Source: Candidatus Rokuibacteriota bacterium
GTDB taxonomy: Bacteria > Methylomirabilota > Methylomirabilia > Rokubacteriales > CSP1-6
NCBI GenBank assembly: GCA_003220535.1
Contig: QHSU01000065.1
Span: forward strand, 1-64,000
Length of the DNA stretch: 64,000 nt
Reading direction: 5' to 3'
Position numbers and translations under genes: made by a program. The notes beneath the pieces were generated by a model, which ran no database searches, was not told the DNA's origin, and saw nothing but the letters and a program-made list of their open reading frames with translations. The first letter of the stretch is position 1. Each line of letters starts with the position of its first letter. Shown piece after piece: positions 20,132-55,716 of the stretch.

Positions 20132-21487
20132 TCAGGCGAAGAAGTCTTTGAGGTTGATCCGCTGCCAGACGTCGGCCGGCACGCGGTGTCGGGGCGTGTA
20201 GGCCGCGAGCGAGGGCTTGGCCGTCGCGTCCACGCCCCACTTCGCGCTCATACCGTCCTCGCGGGCCGAGGGATCGAGGTCGGAGCCGCGCGCGTTCGTA
20301 ATGATCGTGATGTCACGGTCGGGTTGGCAGCGCGTCGCGATCGCCCAGTTCACCTGCCGGTCGTCGAAGACGTCCACGTCGTCGTCCACGACGACGATGC
20401 GCTTCATGTAGAGATCGGCGCCGAGCGCCGCCAGAATCGCGTTCTTGGCCTGGCCCGGGATGCGCTGCTCGATGGAGATGAAGCAGGTGAAGGGGCCCGG
20501 CACGCGCACCGCCTTGACCGACGGGACCATCGCCCGCACGGCACGGAAAAGGTTCGCCTCCATCGGGATCGTGGACAGGAGCATGTGGTCGAGGTGGGCG
20601 ACGGTGATGTCCTGGAAGATCGCGTCCCGCCGATGCGTGATCGCGTTGACGCGGACGATCTCGCGCTGGCGCTCGCCGAGGCTATAGCCCGTGAACTCGC
20701 CGAAGGGCCCCTCGGGGGTGCGCTGTCCCGGCAGGATCTCGCACTCGAGCACGATCTCGGCGTGGGCTGGCACGAGCACGTCGGAGGTCTGACACTTCAC
20801 GAGCTCGAGCGGCTCGCCCAGCAGCCCGCCCATGATCCCGCGCTCGTCCTCGTCGATGGATCCGATGGCGAGCGCGCCGAGGGCGATCGCCGGGTGCACA
20901 CCGATCACCAGCGCCAGGGGCAGGGACTCGTTCCGCGCCTCGGCGATCCGCTGGAACTCCCACAGGTGCTTGCCGGTCGTCAGGTGGATCGACGTCGTGT
21001 CGCGGCCCTTGATCTGGAGCCGATTGTAGGCGCAGTTCCAGATCTCCCGCGTTGGGTCTTTCGCGAAGGAGATCGCCGCCGTGACGTATGCGCCGGCGTC
21101 GCCCTCGTGGTGGACGATCTGGGGCAGGTCGTAGAGGTTGATCCGGTCACCCTTGAGGACAACTTCCTGCACGGGTCCGGCGGCCACGACCTTGGGCGGG
21201 AGAGGCTTCTCCATCGCCCGGAGGTAGGTCGCCTGCGTCGCCTCAGGCGCTGCGTTCATGGCGGCGGCGAGCCGCGGCCGGCTGGCGTGGAGATTGGTGA
21301 GGACCGGGAACCTGGTGCCCTTGACGTTCTCGAACAGCAGAACGGGCCGGCGCTTAGCCTCGCGCTCGAGCTTGACGACGAGCGCGGTGATCTCGTACCG
21401 CGGATCGACGGACCCCGCGACGATCTCGAACTCGCCCGCCTTCCGCCGCTTGATGAGATCGAGATAGCTCCGGAGGTCTTGCGCCAT
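20132..21487 (-). CDS. UbiD family (prenyl-FMN-dependent) decarboxylase
   Basis: UbiD enzymes reversibly decarboxylate aromatic or alpha,beta-unsaturated acids with prenylated FMN. The 451-residue protein has SYLDLIKRRKAGEFEIV at the start, NLYDLPQIVHHEGDAGAYVT, the core ECEILPGQRTPEGPFGEFTG (catalytic Arg/Glu region, residues about 250-270) and PGPFTCFISIEQRIPGQAKN. It pairs with a downstream CoA ligase. No UbiX-type prenyltransferase is seen here, so the cofactor must be made elsewhere. A -10-like TATCCT lies seven bases before ATG 21487 on the minus strand. Confidence 0.92.
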   Translation of the reverse strand: MAQDLRSYLDLIKRRKAGEFEIVAGSVDPRYEITALVVKLEREAKRRPVLLFENVKGTRFPVLTNLHASRPRLAAAMNAAPEATQATYLRAMEKPLPPKVVAAGPVQEVVLKGDRINLYDLPQIVHHEGDAGAYVTAAISFAKDPTREIWNCAYNRLQIKGRDTTSIHLTTGKHLWEFQRIAEARNESLPLALVIGVHPAIALGALAIGSIDEDERGIMGGLLGEPLELVKCQTSDVLVPAHAEIVLECEILPGQRTPEGPFGEFTGYSLGERQREIVRVNAITHRRDAIFQDITVAHLDHMLLSTIPMEANLFRAVRAMVPSVKAVRVPGPFTCFISIEQRIPGQAKNAILAALGADLYMKRIVVVDDDVDVFDDRQVNWAIATRCQPDRDITIITNARGSDLDPSAREDGMSAKWGVDATAKPSLAAYTPRHRVPADVWQRINLKDFFA

Positions 21488-21505: not shown

Positions 21506-22201
21506 TCAGGCGTTGCCCGGCACCTTCTTTCTCCCGTTCTGGTTGTTGAGCCACCACCCCAGCGCGACGATGATCGCGGCCGGGACCAACGGCAACAGCC
21601 CGAGGCCGGGCGCCGTGTGGTCGATCCAGCGGGCGAGGCTCTGGTCCTTCAGGACCATCTCGCCCGCGACGTAGCCGAGGACGCCGCCGCCGAGCCAAAT
21701 GATCCAGACGAAGCGGTTCATCAGCGTGGCCAGGAGGCCGCTGCCCCAGACGACGATCGGCAGCGACAGCGCGATTCCAAAGACCACGAGCGTCATGTCG
21801 CCGTGGGCCGCGGCGGCGACGGCGAGCACGTTGTCGAGGCTCATGACCGCGTCGGCGAGGATGATGATCCAGACGGCCTCGCGGAGCGAGCTGCCCTGCC
21901 GCACATGTCCCTCGGCGCCAGTCTCCTTGCGGACGAGCTTGAGCGCGATCCAGAAGAGCAGCGCGCCGCCCACGAGCTGCAGGAGCGGGATCCGTAGCAG
22001 GAACGTCGCGACGGCGATGAACGCGAGCCGGAGACCCACCGCACCCGCGGTGCCCCACACGCGCCCCCAGAGCTGCTGACGCGTCGGCAGCGTCCGGACC
22101 GCGAGCGCGATGACGAGGGCGTTGTCGCCCGCGAGCGTGAGATCGATCACGATGATTCCGACGACGCGCGCCCAGAACTCAGGATCCATCAGAAAGAGCA
22201 T
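21506..22201 (-). CDS. TerC family integral membrane protein (YjbE-like)
   Basis: The 231-residue protein has seven or so hydrophobic helices and two copies of the TerC motif with membrane-embedded Asp residues: IVIDLTLAGDNALVIALAV near residue 18 and ILADAVMSLDNVLAVAAAA near residue 115. TerC and YjbE/YceF relatives are linked to manganese export and to metalation of exported proteins. ATG 22201 lies three bases after the stop of a 31-codon membrane ORF, with GGTGGAG of that ORF serving as the ribosome-binding site, so the pair is coupled. Confidence 0.88.
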   Translation of the reverse strand: MLFLMDPEFWARVVGIIVIDLTLAGDNALVIALAVRTLPTRQQLWGRVWGTAGAVGLRLAFIAVATFLLRIPLLQLVGGALLFWIALKLVRKETGAEGHVRQGSSLREAVWIIILADAVMSLDNVLAVAAAAHGDMTLVVFGIALSLPIVVWGSGLLATLMNRFVWIIWLGGGVLGYVAGEMVLKDQSLARWIDHTAPGLGLLPLVPAAIIVALGWWLNNQNGRKKVPGNA

Positions 22202-22204
22202 ACG

Positions 22205-22300
22205 TCACTCCACCAGCGCTTTCAGGAGCGCGACCAGAACGCGCCCCACCACGATGAGCGCGATGGCGATGGCCAGACCTTGATAGCGATTGACCGTCAT
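22205..22300 (-). CDS. 31-residue single-helix membrane peptide upstream of TerC
   Basis: A short frame starts at ATG (first base 22300) and encodes MTVNRYQGLAIAIALIVVG followed by RVLVALLKALVE. It has one membrane-spanning helix (residues about 8-28). GGGGAGA seven bases before the ATG is a good Shine-Dalgarno sequence. Its stop lies three bases before the TerC start, so it is the first gene of a two-gene unit. It is unlike a random frame because it is a clean hydrophobic helix with its own start signal. It could be a TerC accessory peptide or a leader; I do not recognise it. Confidence 0.6.
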   Translation of the reverse strand: MTVNRYQGLAIAIALIVVGRVLVALLKALVE

Positions 22301-22334
22301 CTCGTGTCTCCCCTGGGAGCGAACGAACGGAGTT

Positions 22335-22352
22335 CGCCGCCGATTGGCGGCG
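22335..22352. terminator. GC hairpin between the secreted ORF and the TerC unit
   Basis: A perfect 7-bp stem (CGCCGCC 22335-22341 with GGCGGCG 22346-22352) with a four-base loop lies after the minus-strand stop at 22382. A second 9-bp perfect hairpin (22420-22428 with 22434-22442) lies inside the end of that coding sequence. Neither has a T-tract, so termination is only a possibility. Confidence 0.3.
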
Positions 22353-22381
22353 TGCTTCAGGAGACGAACGGGACGACGGCG

Positions 22382-22705
22382 CTAGTGGTCTTCGGAGGAC
22401 GGGGCGTGGCTCGGGGACGGCAGGTGAGCGAGCCTCACCTGCGGGAGCCAGTCATCGGCGGTCGGCTGGCGTGCGGCCAGCGCCGGAGGCGCCACCCGAC
22501 GCGGCGACACCAGGTGCTCGGCGCGTTGCCGAGGGATCGCGCGCCGGGCGGCGATCGCCTGTCGACCGTGAGACTCCCGGCGGACATGGATGGACTCTTC
22601 GACCTCGGAGTCCTCGACGTCGAACTCGAAGGCGCCCGGCAGCGGCGTCGTGAGATCGAACGACAGCCAGGCCGTCAGCAAGAGCAGGATCCGACGCGTT
22701 CGCAT
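22382..22705 (-). CDS. Small secreted hypothetical protein
   Basis: The 107-residue protein is not recognised. It begins with a short basic stretch and a hydrophobic core (MRTRRILLLLTAWLSFDL), consistent with a signal peptide, followed by an acidic patch (FEFDVEDSEVEESI) and an Arg/Ala/Pro-rich tail. ATG 22705 is preceded, seven bases away, by a -10 box TACAAT on the minus strand (22713-22718), the same arrangement as at 748. The C-terminal two thirds are of low complexity, so the gene could be decayed or spurious. Confidence 0.45.
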   Translation of the reverse strand: MRTRRILLLLTAWLSFDLTTPLPGAFEFDVEDSEVEESIHVRRESHGRQAIAARRAIPRQRAEHLVSPRRVAPPALAARQPTADDWLPQVRLAHLPSPSHAPSSEDH

Positions 22706-22730
22706 CGGGTCTATTGTACGCGGACGCCGC

Positions 22731-55607: not shown

Positions 55608-55616
55608 CCGCCTTGG

Positions 55617-55704
55617 CGTCGTGGGGGGAGGATTCCTGAGAACCGGGTGCGGCCCGGGACCCCTCGAACCTGCACTGGGTAATTCCAGCGAAGGGAACAC
55701 GACG
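55617..55704 (+). ncRNA. TPP (thiamine pyrophosphate) riboswitch
   Basis: The conserved THI-box core is present: CTGAGA in the P2/P3 junction (near 55636), GAACCTG (near 55666), GGGTAATTCCAGCGAAGGGA (about 55677-55696). Helix P1 is formed by CGTCGTG (55617-55623) and CACGACG (55698-55704). The thiamine genes follow directly. High TPP should stabilise the aptamer and reduce expression of the operon. Confidence 0.95.
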
Positions 55705-55716
55705 ACGAGAATCGAG

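Follow-up and report, generated by a model that had tools for sequence, protein, structure and literature searches.

The terC gene of the window (the whole analysed stretch of DNA, 64,000 nucleotides) stands behind a gene for a 31-residue membrane peptide, a stem predicted to mask the start of that peptide, and a leader open reading frame (ORF) of 107 codons. With a probability that we put at about 0.6 from comparison of the sequences, the leader gates the translation of the peptide and TerC, as one operon, in the manner of SecM and MifM. The pairing of the peptide with TerC had been recognized correctly in the initial annotation, but the unit was incomplete, as the leader ORF and the hairpin (22301–22718) lie upstream of the region that it covered. 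A single small ORF that had been overlooked becomes part of a control cassette with three components, portable and found repeatedly, which appears to be a hitherto unknown switch of genes for cation transport. Both of its small families, the leader and the peptide, are absent from Pfam and NCBIfam.

The terC gene and the 31-residue peptide

The gene at 21506–22201 (− strand) encodes an integral membrane protein of the TerC/YjbE family, 231 aa long. The assignment was obtained with PF03741 (E 2.7e-46, 158 bits, cut-off 27.8) and TIGR03717 (E 6.5e-63, 211.6 bits, cut-off 134.8). Downstream, an ORF at 20132–21487 (−) begins 18 nt beyond the stop codon of terC and goes with this gene in near relatives as well; by eye, its product reads as a decarboxylase of the UbiD family.

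The peptide frame (22205–22300, −) runs from the ATG at 22300 to the TGA at 22205, and its product is MTVNRYQGLAIAIALIVVGRVLVALLKALVE (31 aa). As first described, it is a single-helix frame with its own strong Shine-Dalgarno (SD) sequence, GGGGAG (22308–22313, −), located 7 nt upstream of the start and predicted to be sequestered (see below). The peptide profile matched 22 of 95 genomes of the phylum at E ≤ 5.5e-13, and the next match had an E value of 0.08. All 22 strong matches were directly 5′ of a terC (Ca. Rokuibacteriota). The comparison genomes were nearly all draft metagenome assemblies. Among 14 near relatives, the median dN/dS was 0.19 for the peptide and 0.24 for TerC, and reading the peptide DNA in frames shifted by one or two bases gave 0.86 and 3.9. 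Third codon positions were variable in 27 of 30 peptide codons, second positions in 6 of 30, and the length was kept at 31–34 aa. Judged by its pattern of substitution, the 31-residue frame is a real gene; a chance ORF was rejected because dN/dS is low and the profile matches are clearly separated. The initial annotation was to be given up if the frame proved unconserved or the synonymous and non-synonymous rates equal; the frame was kept at the 22 terC loci, with the dN/dS of 0.19 given above.

TerC starts at 22201, three bases past the peptide stop, and its likely ribosome-binding site (RBS), GGTGGAG (22208–22214, −; read from the sequence), lies within the last peptide codons. Most near relatives in the alignment have GGTGGAG or GGTCGAG at this site. 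This layout agrees with the original description of the junction. Since the last codons of the peptide overlap the TerC RBS, we infer that the two genes are translationally coupled, and the coupling proposed earlier is supported to the extent that the overlapping signals imply it. In the window, the peptide and TerC are in the same frame with one sense codon between them. In several relatives the frame of the peptide relative to TerC differs, with spacings of −2, −11, −17, and +4 nt and overlap in some, and the peptide stop is present in all of them, as TGA or TAA. Conservation of both the frame and its spacing upstream of terC had been put forward for checking: the frame is conserved, but the spacing varies (−17 to +4 nt).

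The peptide-bearing proteins fall together in the TerC tree, as 22 rows with a single change and support of 72/83. The TerC paralogues encoded in these genomes have no peptide and mostly stand behind a TctA-like gene (TctA named by eye), and none of the sampled terC loci lacking the peptide has a leader match.

Relatives of the peptide

A broadened peptide profile yielded 34 matches at E ≤ 2.1e-6, comprising the 22 terC loci and 12 others. Peptides away from terC include MKIKEGYEGLVVALLMLLVSMVLILGLKLLR before NhaA and MAKSDKTGILVAVGMLAVALGIIAILKLVIG before an antiporter. When two weaker matches were included, the leader ORF was found just upstream in 35 of the 36 cases, the exception being near a contig end. 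As peptide homologues also precede unrelated antiporters, a regulator of TerC only is too narrow a reading of the peptide, by the evidence of its genomic neighbours.

An Arg or Lys is located 12 residues past the glycine at the start of the helix in 21/21 terC-linked peptides and in 0/13 others (six of the 13 computed, the rest counted on their sequences). Because the basic residue is present only in the terC-linked peptides, the conserved mid-helix position suggests a TerC-specific contact.

The window peptide had no match among the Pfam and NCBIfam profiles, and a known small-protein family was rejected for it on this ground. When members of the family were compared with the same collections, one weak match was obtained (DUF7470, E 0.0024), for one of 15 members. 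At three loci (L163, L189, and L190), the gene of a conserved protein of 114 aa (MAKVGRFVTDPKAGAYCQITLDSGEKI...), with no Pfam match, separates that of the small peptide from a Na+/H+ antiporter gene, and a relative of this protein stands directly behind the leader at another (L132).

The leader ORF

The leader ORF (22382–22705, −; 107 codons) is conserved at all peptide-bearing terC loci, being directly upstream of every one of these genes (100–111 codons), and is also present before other genes. Its product in the window has a hydrophobic N-terminus, followed by FDLTTPLPGAFEF..DSEVEE, a variable middle, and a C-terminal SEDH, and the ORF ends with TAG. Across the loci, the pattern is D-x-A-x-P..PGA..F...acidic motif behind the hydrophobic N-terminus, and [E/D]-D-H at the stop codon. 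By eye, the N-terminus consists of basic residues and then a hydrophobic run of 12–13 residues in nearly all members. The spacer from the putative N-terminal signal to the C-terminal end is approximately 75 residues long (more than 30 are expected of an arrest peptide). Most of 44 loci end with [E/D]D[H/D/A]-stop, a conserved C-terminus of the kind used to recognize arrest peptides (PMC10987492). No family for the leader ORF was found among the Pfam and NCBIfam profiles, and it is an undescribed gene.

Selection on the leader is uneven, with dN/dS of 0.41 in the N-terminal part, 0.93 in the middle, and 0.59 in the last 8 codons. The Glu codon of the leader end is GAA in 26 of 28 loci against 18% GAA among the Glu codons of neighbouring genes (p about 1e-17, overstated since the loci share ancestry), and the stop region is therefore likely to be constrained at the nucleotide or codon level. 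So strong a preference among synonymous codons, shared by paralogues that have diverged, speaks for selection at the level of the RNA or of decoding.

A −10-like box, TACAAT (22713–22718, −), is located 7 nt before the leader start. The pattern TAnnnT was present 5–10 nt before the start of 33 of 41 leader ORFs, as hexamers such as TACAAT and TAGAAT, compared with none of 46 starts of downstream genes and 1.4% of positions taken at random. Given this distance between the box and the leader start, the transcript is probably leaderless, with the mRNA beginning at the start codon.

Predicted pairing over the peptide start

The strand that follows the leader stop (22358–22381, −) is complementary to the SD and the start codon of the peptide (anti-SD and anti-AUG), as judged by fold and permutation tests, and the peptide SD is predicted to be sequestered by it. 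The inner hairpin, GCCGCC-AATC-GGCGGC (22336–22351, −), is an inverted repeat that is conserved within the genus and in neighbouring genera, and its loop varies. For the 92-nt region of the window, the minimum free energy was −46.7 kcal/mol against −31.3 ± 3.75 for shuffled sequences (z −4.1, 0/200), and RNAalifold applied to 13 relatives returned the same pairing arm. At all 22 terC loci, the post-stop strand pairs with 8–15 of the 17 nucleotides from the SD to the ATG (mean z −3.0), and the fold had z < −2 at 19 of them.

The two strands also change together: where the SD context GGAGAC is replaced by GGAGAACGG, the partner strand GTCTCC is replaced by CCGTTCTCC. Cognate duplexes of post-stop strand and SD averaged −18.5 kcal/mol, non-cognate ones −15.2 kcal/mol, and 0 of 100,000 permutations matched the cognate value (22 representative loci); for the terC representatives alone, p was 6e-5. 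This permutation test was used instead of shuffling the post-stop strand locus by locus, which is weak alone in GC-rich sequence (9/46 below 0.05). Masking of 14–26 nt past the leader stop, as a stand-in for a ribosome, resulted in a modest rise of the predicted SD accessibility, from 0.12 to 0.29–0.37. The downstream SD and start, as in an SD-sequestering attenuator, pair with sequence that a ribosome on the leader would cover, here as a predicted, covarying structure. Several hflK and response-regulator loci are without clear SD masking (z near 0), so gating of the SD is best supported at terC and at several peptide-bearing antiporter loci. Rfam was searched with gathering and relaxed thresholds, and no match, yybP-ykoY included, was obtained for this control region.

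Other genes behind the leader

Within the phylum, the leader recurs before Na_H_Exchanger antiporters (seven loci), NhaA, a CitMHS_2 transporter, a CNNM/CorC protein, and a Band_7 protein, read as HflK. It also precedes other genes, of which UPF0182 and three further HflK loci were named by eye, and is present at a PIN-domain locus. Outside the phylum, no leader was found in about 290 genomes at E ≤ 1e-5, and plasmids gave no leader match.

The genome of the window has a second leader copy (L123; G000:C117:1694-2011) before a short ORF and a PIN-domain gene, in a toxin-antitoxin-like arrangement, with the same SD masking (z −4.3). At L124 (G011:C55:68420-69770), the leader is duplicated beside the terC cassette, and another protein of 318 aa, polysaccharide deacetylase-like by eye, is fused to the initial codons of the small peptide (MTLNRYEGL), which would fit capture of the control region by recombination. 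At L018 (G028:C35), the position of the peptide is taken by a 63-aa frame with a transmembrane segment at its end and no detectable similarity to the peptide. The leader and the SD masking are conserved there despite the dissimilar frame, which is perhaps an ancestral or replaced partner.

Proposed mechanism and alternative explanations

The single operon would comprise a promoter, the leaderless leader ORF (107 codons), the 31-aa transmembrane peptide, and TerC. By default, the nucleotides past the leader stop would pair with the SD and AUG of the peptide and keep it untranslated, and TerC would be untranslated too, its RBS lying in the last codons of the peptide. A ribosome at the [E/D]DH-stop end of the leader would cover the first strand of the stem, whereby the peptide start would be freed, and the translated peptide would then deliver ribosomes to TerC. 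The regulated step would be the dwell time at the leader stop codon, tied to secretion or to the state of the membrane. Such a regulated dwell time, as in SecM, MifM, and VemP, is suggested by the hydrophobic N-terminus and the conserved last residues of the leader. By analogy with these systems, we infer that the stem is opened when the leader is translated or when its ribosome stalls, and likewise that the arrest occurs. The peptide itself is probably a real membrane product and would pack against TerC through the mid-helix Arg/Lys and the small residues A10 and A14.

The leader product could also be nothing more than a small exported protein, such as a client of TerC or a protein that binds metal, the hairpin serving simply to couple three cistrons with neither arrest nor sensing. 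Purifying selection on its N-terminal half, the hydrophobic N-terminus, and acidic and His residues at conserved places would all suit such a protein, and opening coupled to termination would account for the hairpin as well. We consider this rather unlikely, as the middle of the leader is nearly neutral, synonymous sites are constrained at its last Glu codon, and the leader precedes unrelated genes (HflK, antiporters, the PIN-domain locus), which a portable control element fits better. That the 31-aa frame only loads ribosomes for TerC, as a translational relay whose product has no function, would agree with the overlapping stop, RBS, and start at TerC and with related peptides before unrelated transporters; however, a dN/dS as low as that of TerC, the preserved length, and the basic residue confined to terC-linked peptides make it improbable.

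TerC genes are frequently under riboswitch control and the intergenic RNA is strongly structured, which would be expected if a ligand-sensing RNA (a Mn riboswitch of the yybP-ykoY kind or an alx-like pH element) controlled the SD and the leader ORF were incidental. A Mn riboswitch or other Rfam element was rejected for want of an Rfam match, what is conserved of the pairing is a long and simple arm around a variable interior, and conservation extends to the leader ORF and its end, the pairing starting right past the leader stop; a sensing RNA is accordingly very improbable. The identical frames in the window, one sense codon apart, would also allow the peptide to be an N-terminal extension of TerC made by readthrough of the TGA, or the stop to be an assembly error. 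This was rejected as having hardly any chance of being correct, because the spacing, the frame, and the stop codon used vary among relatives, some of which have overlapping genes. A stop is kept in all of them, and homologous peptides precede unrelated genes.

Gating by the leader may extend to a wider family, a tentative reading that we regard as possible though doubtful: clade-specific, exported, leaderless nascent peptides would pause at [E/D]DH-stop and switch on genes of cation transport and membrane quality control, with matched 31-aa transmembrane peptides. The genes concerned would be those of TerC, NhaA, CPA antiporters, CitMHS-type transporters, CorC, and HflK (Rokubacteria), and nascent-chain sensing, known from protein export, would then also serve ion homeostasis. 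Should the leader indeed arrest, TerC and sodium/proton antiporters would come under nascent-chain monitoring as well, hitherto described mainly for Sec/YidC genes, and the control of TerC would be tied to the same secretion pathway that TerC proteins act in.

Comparison with known systems

MgtS, KdpF, AcrZ, and CydX are small membrane proteins of about 30–50 aa with a single helix, which accompany a transporter or a membrane complex. The peptide resembles them as a small single helix going with a transporter. It differs in having no detectable sequence family and in being translated behind a putatively gating leader, and its relatives accompany several unrelated transporter folds. The yybP-ykoY Mn riboswitch and the alx pH element are found upstream of TerC genes, and post-transcriptional control before a TerC gene would be common to them and the cassette. 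Unlike them, the cassette has no Rfam match and contains a conserved ORF, the stop of which abuts the SD-masking stem.

When SecM arrests, a hairpin that covers the SD of secA is opened; with the '-stop' arrest peptides, the A site of the stalled ribosome holds the stop codon (PMC10987492). The arrest peptides of Sec/YidC genes and the leader share an unannotated upstream ORF, an N-terminal localisation signal (a probable one in the leader), a long variable spacer, a conserved C-terminus at the stop, and a hairpin over the SD of the next gene; the layout matches SecM, MifM, and VemP, and most of all the '-stop' arrest peptides (PMC10987492). The genes downstream are different, being those of TerC, cation antiporters, CorC, and HflK and not sec or yidC, the [E/D]DH-stop motif is unrelated to those of the Sec/YidC peptides, and the C-terminal motif is shorter than that of SecM. 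In addition, the leader is probably leaderless, often with the 31-aa transmembrane cistron before the transporter. The criteria for the Sec/YidC monitoring-substrate arrest peptides include being an upstream ORF of secA, secDF, or yidC (PMC10987492), and the leader was not filed among them because its downstream genes are others and its arrest is putative.

The TerC proteins MeeF and MeeY of B. subtilis metalate exported enzymes (PMC10550928). They work with the Sec translocon, and SecDF is among the secretion factors with which they co-purify (PMC10550928), which makes a secretion-linked control of terC plausible. The protein encoded in the window is likewise a TerC-family membrane protein, but of the TIGR03717 (YjbE) type. 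No leader/peptide cassette was found described in the literature on MeeF/MeeY, and the literature search turned up neither a small peptide nor an arrest peptide linked to TerC. Elsewhere in the window, a TPP riboswitch was detected at 55614–55714 (+), with a score above the Rfam gathering threshold.
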